38,538 nt of DNA, from assembly GCF_000235425.2 (NCBI RefSeq), contig NZ_KI912266.1, positions 6,677,241 to 6,715,778 on the forward strand, given 5' to 3'. Each line of letters opens with the position of its first letter. The first letter of the stretch is position 1. The notes under the pieces were generated by a model. It did no database searches and was not told the DNA's origin. It was given only the letters and a program-made list of their open reading frames with translations. Shown one piece after another: positions 30,555 to 38,538 of the stretch. A program made the translations under genes and the position numbers. Source of the stretch: Pseudofrankia saprophytica (lineage in GTDB: Bacteria; Actinomycetota; Actinomycetes; Frankiales; Frankiaceae).

Positions 30555-31400
30555 ATGACGACTGTAGGAATCGCGACCGGAGCGGGCCGCGGCATGGGCC
30601 TGGCCTGCGCGCGGCGGCTCGCCGACTCGGTGGACGCGCTGGTGCTCGTCGACCGCGACGAGACCACCGTGACGGCGGCGGCGGCCGACCTCGCGGCGCA
30701 GGGCCGCCGGGCCGCCGTCGAGCCGTTCGTCGTCGACGTCACCGACGCCGAGGGCCTCGGCCGGCTCGCGGCTCGCGTCGGCGAGCTCGGCACGCTGCGG
30801 TCGGTCGCGCACGTGGCCGGCATCTCGCCGACGATGGCCGACTGGCGCCGGATCTTCACCGTCGACCTCGTCGGTACCGCCCTGCTGACCGAGGCACTGC
30901 GGCCGCTGTTCACGGCGGGCAGCGCCATGGTGTGCTTCGCGTCGCTGGCCGCGCACCTCGCCGGCCCCGGCCCGCACCCGACGATCGACCCGGTGCTGGA
31001 CGAGCCGCTCGACCCGCGCTTCCTCGACCGGGTCCACGAGGCCCTCGGCTCGTCGGTCGAGGACACCGGCGTCGCCTACACCTTCGCCAAGCGCGGCGTG
31101 CACCGGTTCGTCCAGCGGGAGGCGGTGCGGCTCGGCCCGCTGGGGACGCGCATCGTCTCCCTCTCCCCCGGCCTCATCGACACCCCGCAGGGCCGCCAGG
31201 AGGCGGCCGAGCACACCGCGATGGCCACCATGGTGAAGGCGACCCCGCTCGGCGCCCGGGAGGGGAACGCGGACGAGATCGCCGCCGTCGTCGCCTTCCT
31301 GCTCTCGGACGAGGCCAGCTTCGTCACCGGTATCGACGTCCTCGTCGACGGCGGGGTCCTCGCCGCCCTGCGCAGCCCCGGAGCCCCCACGCTCGGCTAG
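30555..31400 (+). CDS. Short-chain dehydrogenase/reductase
   Basis: A 281-residue NAD(P)-dependent oxidoreductase with Rossmann fold. The cofactor motif is GAGRGMG (9-15), HVAGIS replaces the usual NAG, and the catalytic residues are S130 (CFASLA), Y175 and K179 (YTFAKRG). SPGLIDTP after the active site and FVTGIDVLVDGG at the C-terminus are family standards. The loop between S130 and Y175 is longer than usual and may form the substrate lid. The ATG has GGGAG eight bases upstream. Substrate unknown; a role beside the oxidoreductase and hydrolase in a small degradative set under TetR is plausible. Confidence 0.92.
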   Translation: MTTVGIATGAGRGMGLACARRLADSVDALVLVDRDETTVTAAAADLAAQGRRAAVEPFVVDVTDAEGLGRLAARVGELGTLRSVAHVAGISPTMADWRRIFTVDLVGTALLTEALRPLFTAGSAMVCFASLAAHLAGPGPHPTIDPVLDEPLDPRFLDRVHEALGSSVEDTGVAYTFAKRGVHRFVQREAVRLGPLGTRIVSLSPGLIDTPQGRQEAAEHTAMATMVKATPLGAREGNADEIAAVVAFLLSDEASFVTGIDVLVDGGVLAALRSPGAPTLG

Positions 31401-31516
31401 CCATGGGCCGCCACCGGCGGGGGCTCGCGCGGCGGTCCTGACCACGCAGCGCAGGCCAGGGAACGCGGCGCGACGCGGGACGGTCGCGGTGGGCTCTGTT
31501 TCGGACGCGTTAAGCA

Positions 31517-31534
31517 CTGTCAGCTAGCTGTCAG
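31517..31534. repeat. CTGTCAG direct repeat around CTAG, upstream of glnX
   Basis: CTGTCAG-CTAG-CTGTCAG (31517-31534); the centre CAGCTAGCTG (31521-31530) is also a 10-bp palindrome. It lies 36 bases before the glnX start, a suitable place for a regulator of the sensor-kinase operon. No known protein is matched. Confidence 0.45.
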
Positions 31535-31562
31535 GTTTCGAGCCGGTCCGTCCGGGTCGCCC

Positions 31563-31568
31563 TAAGAT
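31563..31568 (+). promoter_or_regulatory. Candidate -10 box (TAAGAT) at the glnX start
   Basis: TAAGAT fits the actinobacterial TANNNT -10 pattern. Transcription would begin around 31575, that is at the in-frame GTG 31576, which suggests a leaderless messenger starting with that GTG rather than the ATG at 31570. The -35 region is not clear. Confidence 0.35.
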
Positions 31569-31569
31569 C

Positions 31570-32934
31570 ATGAATGTGACCCTCGCCACGGCACTGCCGC
31601 CGACGTCGGGCAGCGCCACCGACCGGGCGTCCGGCCCGGCGCGGGCGGCGGCCTGGCTGCGGGCGCGGGCCGGGACGACCCCCGGCCTGCTGCGCATCCT
31701 GTCGGTGGCACTGGGCGTGTCCATCGCCCTGTTGTGGGCGGCCGCCCTGGCCGCGGTCCTCGTCCGCGACGACGCGGTCCACGCGGTGAGCGCCGACGCC
31801 GCCCCGGCCTTCGCCGCCGCTCAGCGCCTGCACGCCGACCTGTCGGAGGCGGACGCCACGATCGTCAGCGCCTTCCTCGCGGGCCCGGTCGAGCCACCCG
31901 AGCAGCGCAAGGCCTACGACGACAGCATCGCGGCGGCCGAGGGCGAGTTGCGCACGCTCGCCAGGGCTGGCGACGGTTCGCCCGCGGCGCGCGGCGCGCT
32001 GGACACCCTGCACCAGAAGATCCCGGCCTACACGGAGCTGGTCGGCCAGGCCCGTGCCAACAACCGGCAGGAATACGTCGTCGGTGGCGCCTACCTGCGG
32101 CAGGCGTCCCTGCTCATGCAGGGGACGATCCTGCCCGCCGCGGACAGTCTCGCCGTAAGCAGTGCCGAGCAGGTCGACGACGGGTACCGGCGGGCGACGT
32201 CCTCGGTCCATGTCGCGCTGGTCTCGGCGGCGGGCGTCATTAGCCTGGTCGCGCTGGCCGGCGTGCAGCTCTGGCTCTTCCGGCGAACCCACCGGCTGCT
32301 GAACGTCCCGCTGCTCGTCGCGACCGGGCTCGTCATGGTGGTCTTCGCCGTCACGCTGAGCGCCTTCTCGGCCGAGCGAGCCCGGCTGCTCGACGGCCGC
32401 GACGACGGCTTCGTCCCGATGTCCGAGATCGCCCAGGCCAGGGTGCTCGGGCTGCGGGCCTGGGGCGACGAGGGACTGTCGCTGATCGCGCGCGGCGACG
32501 GCGCGGCCCTCGACGCGGACGCGGACGCCGCCATCGCGCGGCTCGGCTACACCCCGGACGGCCGGCCGACGGGCTCGGGAATCCTCCCGACGATCACGGC
32601 CTACCTTCACGGCGAAGGCTTCCGCGAGGGCGACCTCGACGCGCTGTGGCGGGACTACCAGTCCACCAGCATCGAGGTACGCAGGCAGGTGACGAGCGCG
32701 GGCGGCTTCGACAAGGCGCTGGAGCTCGCGCAGGGCGACGGCGCGGAGGCCTTCGGGCGGTTCGACCAGGCGGCGGACCAGGCGCTGACCGCGAGCCAGC
32801 AGCGCTTCGGCGAGCGGCTCTCGGCCGCGGGCGACCGGCTCGGCGGCCTCGCGGCCGTCGTCATCGTGCTCTCGGCGCTGGCGATCGCGCTGGCGCTGGC
32901 CGGGATCCAGGCACGGATCAACGAGTACCGGTGA
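31570..32934 (+). CDS. GlnX-like four-helix membrane sensor protein
   Basis: A 454-residue membrane protein. Four hydrophobic helices lie at about 41-64, 214-236, 246-267 and 425-447. They bracket two extracytoplasmic helical domains of about 150 residues each (65-213 and 268-424), rich in Ala, Asp and Glu like four-helix sensor bundles. The C-terminal cytoplasmic tail is only about seven residues (RINEYR end). This layout and the position before a GlnH-like and a PknG-like gene match mycobacterial GlnX (Rv0412c-type), which with GlnH relays extracellular aspartate or glutamate to PknG. It carries no kinase, HAMP or guanylate-type output domain of its own. ATG 31570 is used; a leaderless GTG at 31576 is possible. 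An 11-base gap leads to glnH. Confidence 0.82.
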   Translation: MNVTLATALPPTSGSATDRASGPARAAAWLRARAGTTPGLLRILSVALGVSIALLWAAALAAVLVRDDAVHAVSADAAPAFAAAQRLHADLSEADATIVSAFLAGPVEPPEQRKAYDDSIAAAEGELRTLARAGDGSPAARGALDTLHQKIPAYTELVGQARANNRQEYVVGGAYLRQASLLMQGTILPAADSLAVSSAEQVDDGYRRATSSVHVALVSAAGVISLVALAGVQLWLFRRTHRLLNVPLLVATGLVMVVFAVTLSAFSAERARLLDGRDDGFVPMSEIAQARVLGLRAWGDEGLSLIARGDGAALDADADAAIARLGYTPDGRPTGSGILPTITAYLHGEGFREGDLDALWRDYQSTSIEVRRQVTSAGGFDKALELAQGDGAEAFGRFDQAADQALTASQQRFGERLSAAGDRLGGLAAVVIVLSALAIALALAGIQARINEYR

Positions 32935-32945
32935 GGGGGCTACCG

Positions 32946-34004
32946 ATGACGCGCGGCCATCAGCTCCCACCCGCCCGTCGCGCGTGGCCCGCCGGCAGGC
33001 GCACGAGCCTCGGCTTCGCCCTGGCCTCGGCGCTGGTCGCGATGCTGGTCGCGGCCTGCGGCACGGTCGCGAGCCCGCTGCCCGACGCCGGCCGGCCGCT
33101 GCCGCTGGCCACCGCGCCCGGCGACGACCCGGCCTCGGCCGGGCCCACCCCGGACTGCGGCAACCCCGAGGTCAGCCTGCGCCCACCCGCGGTCCTGCCC
33201 GGGCCGGGCACGATCCCCGCCGGCGGCCACCTGGCGAAGATCGTCCAGAACGGCTACCTCACCGCGGGAGTGCTGTCCGGCGCGCCTCCGTTCGGCTCGA
33301 TCAACCCGAAGACCGGGAAGTTCGAGGGATTCGACGTCGACATCGCCAGGGAGATCGCGAAGGCGATCTTCGGCCCCAACGGAGACGACCCCGCGCACCT
33401 GAGGTTCCGGGCCATCACCACCGCGGAGCGCATCCCGGTGATCCGTGACCACGAGGTGGACATCGTCGTCGCCACGATGACGACGAACTGCGCGCGGCGC
33501 ACCCTGGTCGACTTCTCCGTGCCCTACTACCGGGCGGTCGCGAGGGTGCTCGTCCTGCGGGACTCGGACTACCAGGGGATCGACGACCTGGGCGGCAAGC
33601 GGGTGTGCGCGCCGGCGAACACCACCTCGTTGCAGCACATCGCGGACGCCCCGTCGCACCCGATCCCGGTCGGGCTGCCGAACGACTCCGACTGCCTGCT
33701 CGCGCTGCAGAACGGCGACGTGGCGGGCATCCTCACCGACGACACGATCCTCATCGGGATGGCCCAGCAGGATCCGCAGACGCGGCTGACCGGCGACGTC
33801 GTCCTCGACGGCAAGGTGGTCGAGGAGCCGGACGCGGTCGCGGTCAGCCTGGACCATCCCGACCTGACACGGTTCGTCAACGGCGTGCTCGCGCGCATCG
33901 CCGCGAACGGCCGCTGGAACCAGATCGCCGACACCTGGCTCGGCTCGCTCGATCCTCCGCTGCTCCCGGCCCCGACGCAGCCGACGCCGCTCTACCGGGA
34001 CTGA
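32946..34004 (+). CDS. glnH: GlnH-like extracellular solute-binding lipoprotein (amino acid type)
   Basis: A 352-residue lipoprotein with a type II periplasmic-binding fold. The signal peptide ends in lipobox LVAAC (C38). The binding domain starts around residue 100 (LTAGVLSGAPPFGSINPKTGKFEGFDVDIAREIAKAI, in pieces typical of polar amino acid binders), continues with RIPVIRDHEVDIVVATMTTNCARR and VDFSVPYYRAVARVLV, and ends in RFVNGVLARIAANGRWNQIADTWLG. In mycobacteria the orthologue binds aspartate or glutamate and signals through GlnX rather than feeding an importer; no ABC permease is adjacent here either. Ligand is not readable from sequence. ATG 32946 has GAGGGG eight bases upstream. Seven bases separate its stop from the next start. 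Confidence 0.88.
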   Translation: MTRGHQLPPARRAWPAGRRTSLGFALASALVAMLVAACGTVASPLPDAGRPLPLATAPGDDPASAGPTPDCGNPEVSLRPPAVLPGPGTIPAGGHLAKIVQNGYLTAGVLSGAPPFGSINPKTGKFEGFDVDIAREIAKAIFGPNGDDPAHLRFRAITTAERIPVIRDHEVDIVVATMTTNCARRTLVDFSVPYYRAVARVLVLRDSDYQGIDDLGGKRVCAPANTTSLQHIADAPSHPIPVGLPNDSDCLLALQNGDVAGILTDDTILIGMAQQDPQTRLTGDVVLDGKVVEEPDAVAVSLDHPDLTRFVNGVLARIAANGRWNQIADTWLGSLDPPLLPAPTQPTPLYRD

Positions 34005-34011
34005 GGGCGTG

Positions 34012-35394
34012 ATGGCGGCCGGGTCGCTGTCCGCGCTGGACAGGACGCTCGACCAGCTGCGCGCCGGCGCGGCCGGGCTCGCCGTCGCGCTCCTCGAGCT
34101 CGACACCGACGCCAACCGGGCCCTGCTCGACCCGGCGGCGCGGACCGGCGCCGCGGCCGTGCGCGCTGGGGCGGTGCGTGCCCGGCTCGACTGGCTGTGG
34201 GAACGTCACCGGCTGCTGTCCGACGTCATCCGCCGGGCCGAGACACTGCGGGGCGACCGGCCCTGGCTCAGCCCGCGCCGGCTCGCGGACCTGGAGGCCC
34301 TCCTGCACCGCGCGTCCCAGCCGACCCCGCCGCCCCCACCGCCCCTGCCGGCCGTGGCCGCCGCCCCGCCGCCGGCTGGTGCCGCCGCCGGCATCGCCGT
34401 CTACCCCGAGGACCTGCTGGACGGGACGAACGAGGTCGTCGAGGCAGTCCGGGTGGACGTGAACGCGATCGTCGCGGCCTGGGCGTCGAGCGTCGGGCAG
34501 CTGTCGAGCGCCGAACGGCGGCTGGCCGAGCTCGCCGTCACCGCCACCCGGCTGGGCCTGGCCGATCTGCCGGAGCTCACCGCCGCGCGCGCCGCGGTAC
34601 GCGCGTACGGGTCGGCCATCGGCGCCGACCCGCTGTCGGCCCAGGCGACCGAGCTCGCCGCCGTCACCGCGGCGGTGGACGAGGCCGGCGCGGTCCTCAC
34701 CGCGCTCGCGCGGGCCCGCGGCTCGCTCCCCGCGGACCTGCGCGCCGCCGAGACGCTGCTGGCCGAGATCCTCACCGTCGCGGCGGAGGGGGAACGCCAG
34801 GCGCGCAGGACGGTGGAACGGATCTCGGGGGCGCGGGCGGGACTGGCACGGCTGGACGACGGCTGGCTGGCCGACCCGCGCCACGGCCTGCGCCCCTGGC
34901 TGGACCGGCTCGTCGACGCGGCGGCCCGCGGCGACTGGCCGGACGCGGCCCGCGGGCTGCTGGCCTGGCGCGGCTCCGCCGAGACGACCCTGACGAGGGC
35001 CCGCGAGGTCGCCGAGAGGAATGCCGCGCCGCTGCGCCGGCGCGACGAGCTGCGGGGGCTGCTCGGGGCGCTGCACGCGAAGGCCGCCGCCGACGGCAGC
35101 GCCGAGGACCCGGATCTCACGGCGCTCCACCGGCGGGCCCATGATTCGCTTTACATCGCTCCCAGCGACCTGGACGTCGCCGGCGAGCTCGTCCACCGGT
35201 TCGCGGTTCGGGTCACCGCCGGCCCGAACGGCTCCGCCGGGAAGCGGGGCCGGGTGTCATCCGCCGCGCCGTCGGCCCGCTCCGGCGGACGGACAGAGGG
35301 CACCGCGGACGAGGGCGGCGTGACCAGCGGCGGCGCGCGGCACGGCGTCGCCAGGGACCACGGCGTCGCCAGGGACACGGAGGAGGCGGGATGA
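34012..35394 (+). CDS. Unrecognised helical cytoplasmic protein in the PknG operon
   Basis: A 460-residue protein I cannot assign to a family. It has no signal peptide and no membrane helix. Residues 1-101 are helical, rich in Leu, Ala and Arg (LAVALLELDTDANRALLD, WLWERHRLLSDVIRRAE). A Pro-rich linker with six consecutive prolines runs from 104 to 124. Residues 135-400 are again long amphipathic helices (EVVEAVRVDVNAIVAAW, SSAERRLAELAVTATRLGL, LRRRDELRGLLGALHAKAA), like coiled-coil or scaffold proteins. The tail (405-460) is Ser/Gly/Arg-rich, with an HGVARD repeat. ATG 34012 has GAGG five bases upstream; a GTG directly before it is an alternative. It ends in ATGA overlap with the kinase gene, so it is translated together with it. 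Its position between membrane sensor and kinase suggests an adaptor or scaffold; this is inference. Confidence 0.8.
   Translation: MAAGSLSALDRTLDQLRAGAAGLAVALLELDTDANRALLDPAARTGAAAVRAGAVRARLDWLWERHRLLSDVIRRAETLRGDRPWLSPRRLADLEALLHRASQPTPPPPPPLPAVAAAPPPAGAAAGIAVYPEDLLDGTNEVVEAVRVDVNAIVAAWASSVGQLSSAERRLAELAVTATRLGLADLPELTAARAAVRAYGSAIGADPLSAQATELAAVTAAVDEAGAVLTALARARGSLPADLRAAETLLAEILTVAAEGERQARRTVERISGARAGLARLDDGWLADPRHGLRPWLDRLVDAAARGDWPDAARGLLAWRGSAETTLTRAREVAERNAAPLRRRDELRGLLGALHAKAAADGSAEDPDLTALHRRAHDSLYIAPSDLDVAGELVHRFAVRVTAGPNGSAGKRGRVSSAAPSARSGGRTEGTADEGGVTSGGARHGVARDHGVARDTEEAG
35341..35376. repeat. 18-bp perfect tandem duplication inside the helical protein gene
   Basis: CACGGCGTCGCCAGGGAC stands twice, head to tail (35341-35358 and 35359-35376), duplicating HGVARD in frame in the flexible C-terminal tail. 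Perfect identity suggests a recent slip event. Confidence 0.85.
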
Positions 35395-37799
35395 CAGCCA
35401 GCGGCATTCCCTGTCCGCAGGGAGACTGCCCGGACGGCACGATCGACGCCGACGGCTACTGCGACACGTGCGGTACCGCCTACCAGCCGCCCGCCACGGC
35501 CGGCCCGGCGTCAGTAGCGCCAGGCCAGCCCAGCGCCCAGGGCCCCAACGGCTGCCCGGACCCCACCTGCGAGGGGCGCATCGTCGACGGCTACTGCGAC
35601 GTCTGCGGGCTCGCCGCGGGCCCGGCCGGTGGCGGGAGCGCGCAGGCGGGCGCGGGCTCCGCCGTCCCCGCGAGCACCACCCCCGGCGCCGGCGCCAGCG
35701 CCAGTGAGAGCGGCACCGGAAGCTCCAGCGGGTCCGGGGCCAGCCGGTCCGGCCGCTCCCGCCGCTCGACGCGCACGACCGGGCCGCGCAGCCGGCTCGG
35801 CGCCGGCCTCGTCCAGGTGCCGGAGCTGCCCGCGCCCGACCCGACCTCGATGCTGCTCGACGACCCGCAGGTTCCGGAGGACCACCGATACTGCCCGAAC
35901 CCCGACTGCAAGCAGCCGGTCGGCCGCGCCAGCGCCAAGCGGCCGGCCAGGGCCAAGGGGTTCTGCGGCAAGTGCCGGACGCCGTTCTCGTTCGTGCCGG
36001 CGCTCACCAAGGGCGACCGGGTGGGCCAGTACCAGATCGAGGGCGCGATCGCGCACGGCGGCCAGGGCTGGATCTACCTCGCCCGCGACACCGGCGTGCA
36101 CGAGACCTTCTGGGTCGTGCTCAAGGGCATCCTCGGCACGGGCGACGCCGACGCCTACGCCGCGGCCGTCGCCGAGCGCCGGTTCCTCGCCTCGGTCAAC
36201 CATCCCGCGATCGTCAAGATCTACACGTTCGTGGAGCACGCGGGCAGCGGCTACATCGTCATGGAGTACGTCGGCGGGACGTCGCTGCGCGCGCTGCTCA
36301 AGGCGCGGCGCGACGAGGCCGACGGCACGCCGAACCCCCTGCCAGCCGCCGAGGCGATCTCCTACGTCCTCGCGATGCTGCCCGCGTTCGCCTACCTGCA
36401 CCGGGGCGGCCTGGTGTTCTGCGACCTGAAGCCCGACAACGTCATGCTCGCCGGGGACTCGGTGAAGCTCATCGACCTCGGCGCCGTCCGCCGGCTCGAC
36501 GACGACGGTGGAGTGATCTACGGCACGCCCGGCTACCAGGGGCCGGAGGTGGCCAGGCAGGGGCCGTCGGTCGCCTCCGACCTGTACACGGTCGGGCGCA
36601 CGCTCGCGGCGCTGATCCTGAACTTCCGCGGCAACACCTCCACCTACCGGTACCGCCTCCCGCCCGCCTCGGAGCACCCGCCGCTGAACGAGTGCGACTC
36701 GCTCTACCGGTTCCTGCGCAAGGCGACCGCGCCCGTGCCCGACGACCGGTTCACCAGCGCGGACGAGATGCACGACGAGCTGCTGGGTGTGCTGCGCGAG
36801 ATCGTCGCCAGGAAGGACGGCAGGCCGCTGCCGGCGCCAAGCCGGCTGTTCGCCGGCGACAGCCACCTCACCGGCGAGGAACTGGACGGCACCAGGGCCG
36901 GGCCGCCGTGGGCGGTGCTGCCGGCGCTGCGGGTCGACCCCGCCGACCAGGCGGCGAGCACCCTGGCGGCCCTGCCGGACAGCGACCCCGCCACGCTCGC
37001 CCAGCTGCTCGCCGCGATCAGCCCCCAGACAGTCGAAGTACGGCTGCGTCGGGCCCGTGTCCTGATGGAGGCGGGCGAGGCGGCCGAGGCCGGCCGCGTG
37101 CTCGACGAGGTCGCGGACGAGGACCCCTGGGAGTGGCGGGTCGAGTACTACCGCGGGCTGCTCGCGCTCACGGGAGGCGAGGCGGCGACGGCCAGGGGCG
37201 CCTTCGACCGGGTCTACTCCGAGGCACCGGGGGAGCTCGCGCCCAAGCTCGCGCTCGCGCTCGCCGCCGAGGTCGACGGCGCCCTGGCGGCCGCCGAGGC
37301 GATGTACGACATCGTGTCGCGCACCGACGACGGGTACACCAGCGCGGCGTTCGGGCTCGCCAGGGTCCGCGCCGCCCGGGACGACCGGACGGGGGCGGTG
37401 GAGGCCTACCAGCGGGTTCCGCCGTCCTCCGCGGCATACCTGGACGCGCAGATCCGGCTGGCGAGGGTGCTCGGCACGGTGAAGCCCAGCCGGGACGACA
37501 TCGCCGCGGCGGCACGGGTGTTCGACCGCCTCAGCGGCGGCCAGGGGCTCAGGCTCGACGAGGTACGGCGCGCGGCGCTCGCCCGCGACCTGCTCGACGC
37601 CGCGCTCAAGCTGGTCATCGCGGACGCGGGGATGGGCGCCGACGACGTCCGGGTCGCCGGAGCCCGACTGCGGGAGCCCGACCTGCGGTTCGCCCTGGAG
37701 CGGGTCTACCGCGAGATGGCCAAGCAGGCGCCGACCGCCGCCATCCGGTACGAGCTGGTCGACCTGGCGAACAGCTTCCGTCCCAGGACGCTGGTCTGA
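35391..37799 (+). CDS. pknG: PknG-like serine/threonine kinase with zinc ribbons and TPR domain
   Basis: An 802-residue soluble kinase. Two N-terminal zinc ribbons (C8, C13, C24, C27 and C55, C60, C69, C72) are an addition to mycobacterial PknG. A Ser/Arg-rich linker with several Thr (about 95-137) follows, then the PknG-type rubredoxin-like module C168, C173, C192, C195. Kinase (about 213-480): AHGGQGWIYLA glycine loop, VVLKG with K245, LVFCDLKPDN with D345 in place of the HRD motif, IDLGAV with D362 in place of DFG, and YGTPGYQGPE; all are PknG peculiarities. A TPR-like helical repeat region occupies about 530-740. PknG phosphorylates the FHA protein GarA/OdhI, releasing inhibition of 2-oxoglutarate dehydrogenase and shifting glutamate metabolism. 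The gene overlaps its upstream neighbour by four bases and its TGA shares one base with the phosphatase ATG. Confidence 0.93.
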   Translation: MTASGIPCPQGDCPDGTIDADGYCDTCGTAYQPPATAGPASVAPGQPSAQGPNGCPDPTCEGRIVDGYCDVCGLAAGPAGGGSAQAGAGSAVPASTTPGAGASASESGTGSSSGSGASRSGRSRRSTRTTGPRSRLGAGLVQVPELPAPDPTSMLLDDPQVPEDHRYCPNPDCKQPVGRASAKRPARAKGFCGKCRTPFSFVPALTKGDRVGQYQIEGAIAHGGQGWIYLARDTGVHETFWVVLKGILGTGDADAYAAAVAERRFLASVNHPAIVKIYTFVEHAGSGYIVMEYVGGTSLRALLKARRDEADGTPNPLPAAEAISYVLAMLPAFAYLHRGGLVFCDLKPDNVMLAGDSVKLIDLGAVRRLDDDGGVIYGTPGYQGPEVARQGPSVASDLYTVGRTLAALILNFRGNTSTYRYRLPPASEHPPLNECDSLYRFLRKATAPVPDDRFTSADEMHDELLGVLREIVARKDGRPLPAPSRLFAGDSHLTGEELDGTRAGPPWAVLPALRVDPADQAASTLAALPDSDPATLAQLLAAISPQTVEVRLRRARVLMEAGEAAEAGRVLDEVADEDPWEWRVEYYRGLLALTGGEAATARGAFDRVYSEAPGELAPKLALALAAEVDGALAAAEAMYDIVSRTDDGYTSAAFGLARVRAARDDRTGAVEAYQRVPPSSAAYLDAQIRLARVLGTVKPSRDDIAAAARVFDRLSGGQGLRLDEVRRAALARDLLDAALKLVIADAGMGADDVRVAGARLREPDLRFALERVYREMAKQAPTAAIRYELVDLANSFRPRTLV

Positions 37800-38538
37800 T
37801 GGCGGGCACGAGGACCACGGCGGCGCGGCTCTGCCCGGTCTGCTCGGCGGAGGCGGCCGACGCGGACGTCTACTGCGAGGAGTGCGGAGCCGACCTGCCC
37901 GCGACCGATCTACCTCCGACCGACCTGCCCGCGACCGACCTGCCGGCTGCCGACCTGCCGGCTGCCGACCCCTCCGGGGTCTCCGACGAGCCGCGGGGCG
38001 CCGCCAGCCGACCCGCGCCGCCTGCCCAGGACGCGGCGCCCGGGACCGGTGCGGCGGGCGATGCCAACGGGACACCGCGCGCCCCGGCGCCGCCGGAGCC
38101 GACCGTCTCGCTGGGCTCCACCGCCTCCCTCGGGTCGACGGTGTCACTGGAGACCCCAACACCCGCCGCCAGTCCCCGGTTCGCCAGTCCGGGCAGGTCG
38201 TGCCCGGCGTGCTCCTCGGCCGCGGTCGGCGACGACGGTTACTGCCTCGACTGCGGCCTGTGGCTGGGCTCGGCCCACCCCGGCGACCACGTCGAGGTGG
38301 ACCTCGGACGGCTCGCCGGTGTCAGCGACCGCGGACTCGTCCACCGGCACAACGAGGACGCGATGGGCCTGCGCCTCGTCGCCTGGCCGGATCCCGCGAC
38401 GGCGGACGGAACCGGGACGGCCGCCATCGCCGTCGTCTGCGACGGCGTCTCCACCGTGCCCGGCTCGGGACCGGCCGCCGCGCTGGCGGCTCAGGCGGCG
38501 ACGACCACGCTCGCGGACTGGCTCGCCGCGGCGCGGCC
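37799..38538 (+). CDS. PP2C-type protein phosphatase with zinc ribbons (cut by the right edge)
   Basis: The first 246 codons of a gene running off the window. It begins with a zinc ribbon (C12, C15, C26, C29), an Asp-Leu-Pro pentapeptide repeat (about 32-57), a Pro/Ala-rich stretch, a SLGST repeat (104-117), and a second zinc ribbon (C135, C138, C149, C152). The phosphatase domain starts near 170 with SDRGLVHRHNEDA (the R-x-x-N-E-D motif 1, 177-188) and VVCDGVST with metal-binding D215/G216, both PP2C hallmarks. The rest of the catalytic domain lies beyond the edge. Its ATG overlaps the pknG stop by one base (TGATG), so kinase and phosphatase are made together, suggesting that it removes phosphate placed by the kinase. 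Zinc ribbons with the same GYCxxCG spacing occur in PknG. Confidence 0.85.
   Translation, partial: MAGTRTTAARLCPVCSAEAADADVYCEECGADLPATDLPPTDLPATDLPAADLPAADPSGVSDEPRGAASRPAPPAQDAAPGTGAAGDANGTPRAPAPPEPTVSLGSTASLGSTVSLETPTPAASPRFASPGRSCPACSSAAVGDDGYCLDCGLWLGSAHPGDHVEVDLGRLAGVSDRGLVHRHNEDAMGLRLVAWPDPATADGTGTAAIAVVCDGVSTVPGSGPAAALAAQAATTTLADWLAAAR

Follow-up and report, generated by a model that had tools for sequence, protein, structure and literature searches.

A seven-gene pknG operon in Pseudofrankia saprophytica with an ArnB-like VWA protein: a candidate nutrient-responsive phosphorylation switch

Introduction

In mycobacteria and in Corynebacterium glutamicum the step from the sensor to the Ser/Thr kinase PknG has been published, and the operon described there has three genes (PMC6069109, PMC9769921, PMC8546545). 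The PknG literature covered here concerns mycobacteria, corynebacteria and the three-gene operon. Here a locus of Pseudofrankia saprophytica (Frankiaceae) is described that shares the GlnX, GlnH and PknG families and their order with the GlnX-GlnH-PknG-GarA/OdhI system of Mycobacterium and Corynebacterium, but has four extra genes, ORF3, PP2C, VWA and FHA. It begins within a stretch of 38,538 nt, G000:C1:6677241-6715778 of a 9.98 Mb genome in two contigs, which is referred to as the window, and continues into DNA that runs past the window end (L031, where a position equals the window position minus 37759).

A second described system is the archaeal Arn switch. In Sulfolobus, ArnA (a zinc finger and an FHA domain) binds ArnB in a complex that is nutrient dependent; ArnC, a kinase with a TPR-like stretch, phosphorylates the C-terminal region of ArnB, and PP2A removes the phosphate; in an ArnB paralogue, vWA2/ArnE, both the phosphorylation sites and the C-terminal extension are missing (PMC6509490, PMC7472852, PMC12852372). 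None of the ArnB sites is essential by itself (PMC12852372). The ArnB blueprint has been called widespread, mostly outside multi-phosphorylation-dependent processes, with a Catenulispora acidiphila protein named (PMC12852372, 2026). The VWA protein of C. acidiphila with the solved structure PDB 4FX5 has been noted as ArnB-like (PMC6509490, PMC12852372), and its function is named nowhere in the material covered. Third, the TerY-P triad has a VWA protein, a PP2C and a zinc-ribbon Ser/Thr kinase in one operon (PMC11090510).

In the passages and sections covered, no discussion of a PP2C-VWA-FHA-ORF3 extension was found, nor anything tying PknG to this VWA or FHA protein or joining PknG and ArnB. 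The sensor-kinase core is already known. We give a slightly better than even probability to the reading that the seven genes encode a nutrient-responsive Ser/Thr phosphorylation switch, with the VWA/FHA pair as an Arn-like dedicated effector. The gene set, its order, the protein families and folds, the conserved residues and their co-variation are presented below.

Results

The operon and its conservation

The seven genes are as follows.

glnX: 31570-32934, + strand, membrane sensor/transducer, 454 aa (NF058618)
glnH: 32946-34004, + strand, ATG start, amino-acid-binding lipoprotein, 352 aa, gap of 11 after glnX (SBP_bac_3)
ORF3: 34012-35394, + strand, ATG start, all-helical cytoplasmic protein, 460 aa, gap of 7 after glnH, no family, proposed adaptor
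pknG: 35391-37799, + strand, Ser/Thr kinase, 802 aa, 4-base overlap with ORF3
PP2C: 37799-38538 in the window, whole gene L031:40-1413, + strand, 457 codons, 1-base overlap with pknG, cut by the window end
VWA: L031:1413-2687, outside the window, + strand, 424 aa, 1-base overlap with PP2C (Pfam VWA_3 and VWA_3_C)
FHA: L031:2684-3634, outside the window, + strand, 316 aa, 4-base overlap with VWA (Pfam FHA)

The open reading frame check agrees with the initial annotation on five same-strand genes with gaps of 11 and 7 and overlaps of 4 and 1. That annotation had called the operon complete-looking. However, the VWA and FHA genes continue the unit past the window and belong to the set; thus the unit has seven genes. 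With an alternative in-frame GTG start at 32931, glnH would overlap glnX by 4 bases; a GTG start of ORF3 at 34009 would leave a gap of 4. Downstream of FHA are about 345 bases and then a gene that by eye is catalase-like. Rfam gave no match in 31200-38538, and scans for sigma-70 consensus promoters and terminators found none, which says little in a GC-rich phylum.

Of 35 genomes in the order, 27 have a PknG_TPR match, as do 142 of 393 in a sample of the class (140 over the cut-off) and 49 of 396 in a sample of the phylum (31 over the cut-off). Eighty-one PknG loci, some cut by contig ends, were scored with profiles built on the seven proteins: the present one and 80 picked by hand for spread over families, 31 from the 47 other over-cut-off rows in the order, where one gene can account for several rows, and 49 from the class and phylum samples. 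The own family, f1, is Frankiaceae; f3 is taken as Streptomyces, f4 as mycobacteria, corynebacteria and kin, and f90 points to Streptosporangiaceae. All seven families are found on one strand at 29 of the 81 loci, own included: ten in the own family, nine in f90, five in f3, two each in f4 and f8, and one in f84. The order is as here in 19 of these, rotated (ORF3-pknG-PP2C-VWA-FHA-glnX-glnH) in nine, and in one ORF3 is split and placed out of order by the scoring. Since the order recurs across families, it is more than chance would give. PknG, PP2C, VWA and FHA are together at 41 of the 81 loci.

A further set consists of the best 80 loci found when named genomes were scanned with the VWA alignment; it is thus selected for VWA, and more exist. 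It has all seven families at 38 loci, PP2C at 78, FHA at 79 and PknG at 67, with several contigs short. Pseudofrankia, Streptomyces, Actinoplanes, Cellulomonas, Kineosporia and Actinomadura are included, as are metagenome-assembled genomes (MAGs) of Acidimicrobiia and Solirubrobacteraceae, one of the 38 seven-family loci being a Solirubrobacteraceae MAG. The long form or its core is also found in other classes (L114, L200, L242, L252, L254, mostly MAGs), which suggests that the seven-gene form is the older and the three-gene form derived.

Twelve of the 81 loci have glnX, glnH and pknG without the other four (eight in f4, two in f113, L071 and L124), and no PP2C was found in the stretches examined around three-gene loci of the mycobacterial/corynebacterial type. 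At 7 of 32 own-family loci PknG is convergent to a glnH-glnX pair with nothing else of the set. Genus g238 has a second PknG type (L064-L066, L072, L074, L076, L078), convergent to glnH-glnX; the strand of this PknG carries no match to PP2C, VWA or FHA. Two f4 genomes (G719 and G650; L094, L119) have the seven-gene form in addition to other PknG copies, possibly by transfer or as an old paralogue.

Junctions were measured to the nearest start codon, which favours small gaps. Overlaps of 4 or 1 bases are found at 35 of 42 PknG-PP2C, 34 of 43 ORF3-PknG, 36 of 51 GlnX-GlnH, 16 of 39 PP2C-VWA, 19 of 43 VWA-FHA and 2 of 17 GlnH-ORF3 junctions; the commonest glnX-glnH junction in relatives is a 4-base overlap (29/51). 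Thus one part of the first interpretation is borne out, in that the genes for sensor, kinase and phosphatase make up a conserved and tightly packed unit; the part that made GarA the target of the phosphatase is not.

Alternatively, ORF3, PP2C, VWA and FHA might form a separate module that is merely a neighbour of PknG and works with other kinases. In favour of this, loci with a lost or broken PknG (L170-L176) still have the module, or parts of it that include PP2C, and the own genome has a second PP2C-FHA pair elsewhere. However, ORF3, present in 95 of 393 genomes, is accompanied by PknG in 92 of them (G419, G645 and G673 are the others), and PknG lies inside the module, overlapping the gene on either side by 4 or 1 bases at most of the measured loci. 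A separate module is thus considered quite unlikely.

The second PP2C-FHA pair, of the operon type with a zinc-ribbon PP2C, is at L169:6254-9206 (G000:C1:1931253-1934205), and its flanking genes are by eye cysS-like and rRNA-methyltransferase-like. L170 and L171 (f3) keep ORF3, PP2C and FHA and show no VWA or PknG match. In Parafrankia colletiae (L199/L176) the glnX, glnH and pknG matches are fragments, and ORF3, PP2C, VWA and FHA match well.

The VWA tail and the FHA protein

The model of the VWA protein (pLDDT, the predicted local distance difference test score, of 94.6) matches 4FX5 over its full length, including the S-T-K-T tail (E 1.6e-58, TM score 0.94). Against ArnB, chain 8s05_A, the fold match has E 1.1e-21, TM 0.69/0.76 and 17% identity. 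The matches to 8s05 and to the ArnB paralogue 5a8j extend over 435-437 columns, and other VWA proteins and Sec24 rank after them. These fold matches, with VWA_3_C at 46.8 bits, agree with the Arn-type build of a VWA protein that has an inserted beta-sandwich and a C-terminal helical domain.

The C-terminus, DEMDLDAQSTKTVPAPR, is a conserved acidic S-T-x-T tail whose last Thr is invariant (21/21, alignment A5). In the best-80 named set a strict pattern, set beforehand, finds the tail in 73 of 80 proteins, and a relaxed pattern, set after the misses, in 80 of 80. Presence of the tail was compared with that of PP2C for the 52 VWA proteins of at least 300 bits, own included, with L113 and L123 dropped as fragments. 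Both are present in 38 and neither in 12; one has PP2C only (L103) and one the tail only (L115, by a widened pattern). The L103 tail is in fact present, as ELDTRSSKTVR. The Fisher value is 8e-10 and ignores descent.

The FHA protein shows a parallel pattern (matches below 150 bits and L113 were dropped). The arginine that we take to be the phosphothreonine-binding residue is present at 37 of 38 loci with PP2C, the remaining one having Lys, and is replaced by Ala or Ser at 5 of 5 without PP2C; Ser, His and Asn are kept in 43 of 43. In loci without PP2C, three-gene loci included, the kinase residues are kept in 36 of 36. Thus loss of the putative acceptor tends to go with loss of the reader residue and of the eraser, but not of the kinase residues. 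A zinc ribbon is at residue 127 of the FHA protein. No ArnA chain is among its PDB matches.

At L081, L117 and L118 (f3) there are PknG-like/VWA pairs in which the VWA frame ends in a zinc-ribbon-like FCEECGH/FCEKCGH and not in the S-T-x-T tail.

The kinase and the phosphatase

PknG_rubred, Pkinase and PknG_TPR are all over their cut-offs in PknG, which matches PDB 2pzi with E 1.3e-136; aligned to 2pzi, the catalytic Lys, Asp and DLG are present (VVLKG, CDLKPDN, IDLGAV). Besides the rubredoxin there are two additional N-terminal zinc-ribbon-like motifs, and the cysteine pairs, at residues 8, 55 and 168, all precede the kinase domain. Among relatives four loci deviate at the catalytic residues: they are changed in L079, and the gaps seen in L082, L083 and L084 probably stem from locus cutting or alignment. 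A pattern for N-terminal threonines of PknG revealed no conserved motif (13 of 81 loci).

The part of PP2C within the window matches PP2C_2 with E of only 0.12; the whole protein, with a masked stretch, reaches 40.4 bits over a cut-off of 24. Two zinc ribbons are N-terminal, and PP2C motifs are at residues 176, 214, 321, 399 and 441 (alignment A3). The best match per genome to the ribbon-type PP2C profile is at least 179.3 bits in 42 of 49 genomes and at most 112.5 bits in seven (G074, G288, G733, G278, G621, G726, G409).

Since the same three protein types form one operon in TerY-P (PMC11090510), the locus might be a TerY-P-like stress or defence triad of kinase, PP2C and VWA that has captured the PknG sensor genes. 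PADLOC gives a weak match for PP2C (PDC-M21C, 23.2 bits) and matches for the kinase (e.g., PD-T4-6, 116.6 bits) that were judged generic, and none for VWA, FHA or ORF3; thus a defence system was not accepted. Membership in TerY-P was ruled out by the ribbons, which are N-terminal here and C-terminal to the kinase in TerY-P, and by the ArnB-like VWA protein. The genomic company differs as well: by eye, and with no dedicated search made, none of the downstream genes was recognised as a restriction or tellurite gene. Capture of the sensor genes by such a triad is considered very improbable.

The sensor proteins and ORF3

GlnX is a member of the GlnX family NF058618 (344.8 bits, cut-off 250) and not of the equivalog NF041460, protein kinase G-activating protein GlnX (114.4 bits, under the cut-off of 780). 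Hydrophobic windows at 46-70, 213-231, 248-266 and 428-446 give four transmembrane-like segments. GlnH matches SBP_bac_3 (93.2 bits), has the lipobox VAAC and is similar to GlnH of Mycobacterium tuberculosis (Mtb), 6h1u (E 6e-55). The assignment of the first, second and fourth genes to GlnX, GlnH and PknG was correct.

The side chains of Mtb GlnH in contact with the ligand are Arg147, Thr162 and Trp232 (PMC6069109). In a pocket alignment of 72 rows, in which the own sequence is present twice, Arg147 is Arg in 72 of 72, Thr162 is Thr in 65 of 72 and Ser164 is Ser or Thr in 72 of 72. However, Trp232 is Trp in only 12 of 72 and is Asp here, with Arg and Thr kept, and GlnH thus lacks the full Asp/Glu-specific residue set of PknG-linked GlnH. 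The ligand is likely to be an amino acid, but from the pocket residues specificity for Asp/Glu is not assured, and aspartate or glutamate as the sensed ligand, as first stated, is uncertain.

A second GlnH-like lipoprotein, L034:6841-7932, with 66% DNA identity, is near a transmembrane kinase that by eye is PknB-like (L034:3409-5625), and the two make another binding-protein/kinase pairing.

ORF3 has no match in Pfam or NCBIfam. Seven residues are invariant in an alignment of 30 sequences, and six of the seven lie in a C-terminal RRDELRG...PxDL block; the AlphaFold2 model has a pLDDT of 85.7. Coiled-coil and helix-bundle matches (Pfam; best PDB profile E 0.00047) are weak and were taken as noise. 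An apparent ORF3-pknG fusion at L080 was taken as a frameshift, ORF3 being split over two frames there. Some ORF3 matches carry one TGA; checked by coordinates at L101, the match extends one codon beyond the gene's own stop.

GarA

The initial annotation had suggested a search for a GarA/OdhI-like FHA protein and for the same gene order in relatives. A single-copy GarA orthologue is at L033:4729-5283 (6i2p, E 1.7e-49; NF041660, 193.6 bits, just under the cut-off of 200), E1o and NAD-GDH are present in the genome, and the order is conserved across families, so neither a missing GarA nor an unconserved order speaks against that annotation. GarA is adjoined by a gene that by eye is a MerR gene, presumably also the mycobacterial arrangement.

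With these proteins at hand, a plain GlnH-GlnX-PknG-GarA axis should be considered, in which the operon PP2C is the GarA phosphatase and VWA, FHA and ORF3 are passengers or fine-tuners. One GarA match at E 1e-20 or better was found in each of the 49 genomes tested. Such an axis is established in relatives (PMC6069109, PMC9769921, PMC5448819), and Saccharopolyspora erythraea GarA is phosphorylated at ETTS (PMC12321487). The PknG site in OdhI is Thr14 (PMC9769921); by our own count on the f4 relative L195, this is the first Thr of ETTS. However, GarA in 20 of 20 Frankiaceae genomes has QTSx (DQTSS here) and no intact ETTS, most sites having been read by eye. The alignment of the two motifs is ambiguous: either the first Thr is replaced by Gln, or Glu by Gln and the second Thr by Ser. 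In addition, six Frankiaceae genomes have GarA and no PknG match (G424, G426, G429, G421, G409, G410), five of these six having a ribbon-type PP2C. The own genome has six PP2C matches, and PstP-type PP2Cs are likewise present. Thus the claim that the operon PP2C reverses GarA phosphorylation is not upheld. As PP2C co-occurs with the VWA tail and with the FHA arginine, the VWA protein is at least as good a candidate substrate. The plain axis is judged unlikely.

GarA here also differs from the mycobacterial protein in an N-terminal zinc ribbon, which is weakly like the ribbon of the ArnA chains 5a8i and 8s05_C. The ribbon is present in 40 of 49 genomes and absent in f4 (six genomes), f113 (two) and G451. 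It agrees with the ribbon-type PP2C in 45 of 49 (39 both, 6 neither; exceptions G409, G719, G650, G451), with a Fisher value of 4e-5 that ignores descent. The six with neither are two families, so that the association may be one or two events.

Discussion

The first reading of the locus is right in outline, incomplete, and too narrow in target. In the seven-gene switch that is proposed in its place, the phosphorylation and binding events and the ligand are what we infer. The lipoprotein GlnH would bind an extracellular amino acid and signal to GlnX in the membrane, which, going by published relatives, would control PknG via its TPR domain. PknG would write phosphate on threonines and the zinc-ribbon PP2C of the operon would erase it. 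The VWA protein would be an ArnB-fold scaffold with the C-terminal S-T-x-T tail as the proposed acceptor, and FHA, with its zinc ribbon and phosphothreonine-binding domain, the reader; the pair may work like Sulfolobus ArnB/ArnA. ORF3 may be a helical adaptor. GarA is a probable second client, which would link the switch to 2-oxoglutarate and glutamate metabolism.

The likeness to ArnA-ArnB-ArnC-PP2A consists of an ArnB-fold VWA protein with a threonine-bearing C-terminus, a zinc-ribbon FHA partner with Arg, Ser, His and Asn, a kinase with a TPR or TPR-like part, a phosphatase and a nutrient input. The systems differ in that the FHA protein here has a further N-terminal Cys/His motif besides the ribbon, the operon here includes the sensor genes, and the archaeal output is motility. 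The operon is a candidate exception to the view that the ArnB blueprint occurs mostly outside multi-phosphorylation-dependent processes.

Several observations weigh against this reading. The Arn phosphatase is PP2A, and the phosphatase here is of the PP2C family. The sequence match between the VWA protein and ArnB (8s05_A, E 3.1e-8) spans only profile positions 43-215, the VWA domain, and the ArnB likeness of the remaining protein thus rests on fold. On the VWA tree there are four changes per trait and three independent starred pairs, and a sign test is not significant; with only three such pairs the association of tail and PP2C cannot be called significant. The tail is kept, as is PP2C, in 5 of 5 VWA-bearing loci in which PknG is missing, broken or fragmentary (L172-L176, two of the five tails read by eye). 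Thus PknG need not be the sole tail kinase, and presence of the tail follows PP2C more closely than PknG. The tail is ordered in the model, where residues 406-415 form a helix with a pLDDT of about 95, and it might have to open first. The five FHA proteins without the arginine stem from two groups of loci, and a shifted alignment is conceivable, since in some of them an Arg is one place on. Finally, Foldseek found no significant fold match for ORF3 (best E 0.72).

A broader proposal is put forward tentatively, with a probability well short of even. Leaving aside mycobacteria and corynebacteria, most Actinomycetota with PknG (39 of 51 genomes in a hand-picked set) may use it as the kinase in a bacterial version of the Arn switch, with the VWA tail as acceptor, FHA as reader and PP2C as eraser. 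Mycobacterial PknG would then be a remnant without the module, and GarA there would have lost a ribbon by which it perhaps once docked on VWA, in the manner of ArnA on ArnB.

The three-gene mycobacterial version looks like a stripped-down form of the seven-gene unit. If the longer operon is the older, antibiotic-producing and plant-associated actinobacteria would hold the fuller circuit, with sensor, writer, eraser and reader in one unit. This would join the PknG and archaeal Arn fields, give a setting to the 4FX5 structure, and provide a precise testable residue, the C-terminal threonine of the VWA protein.

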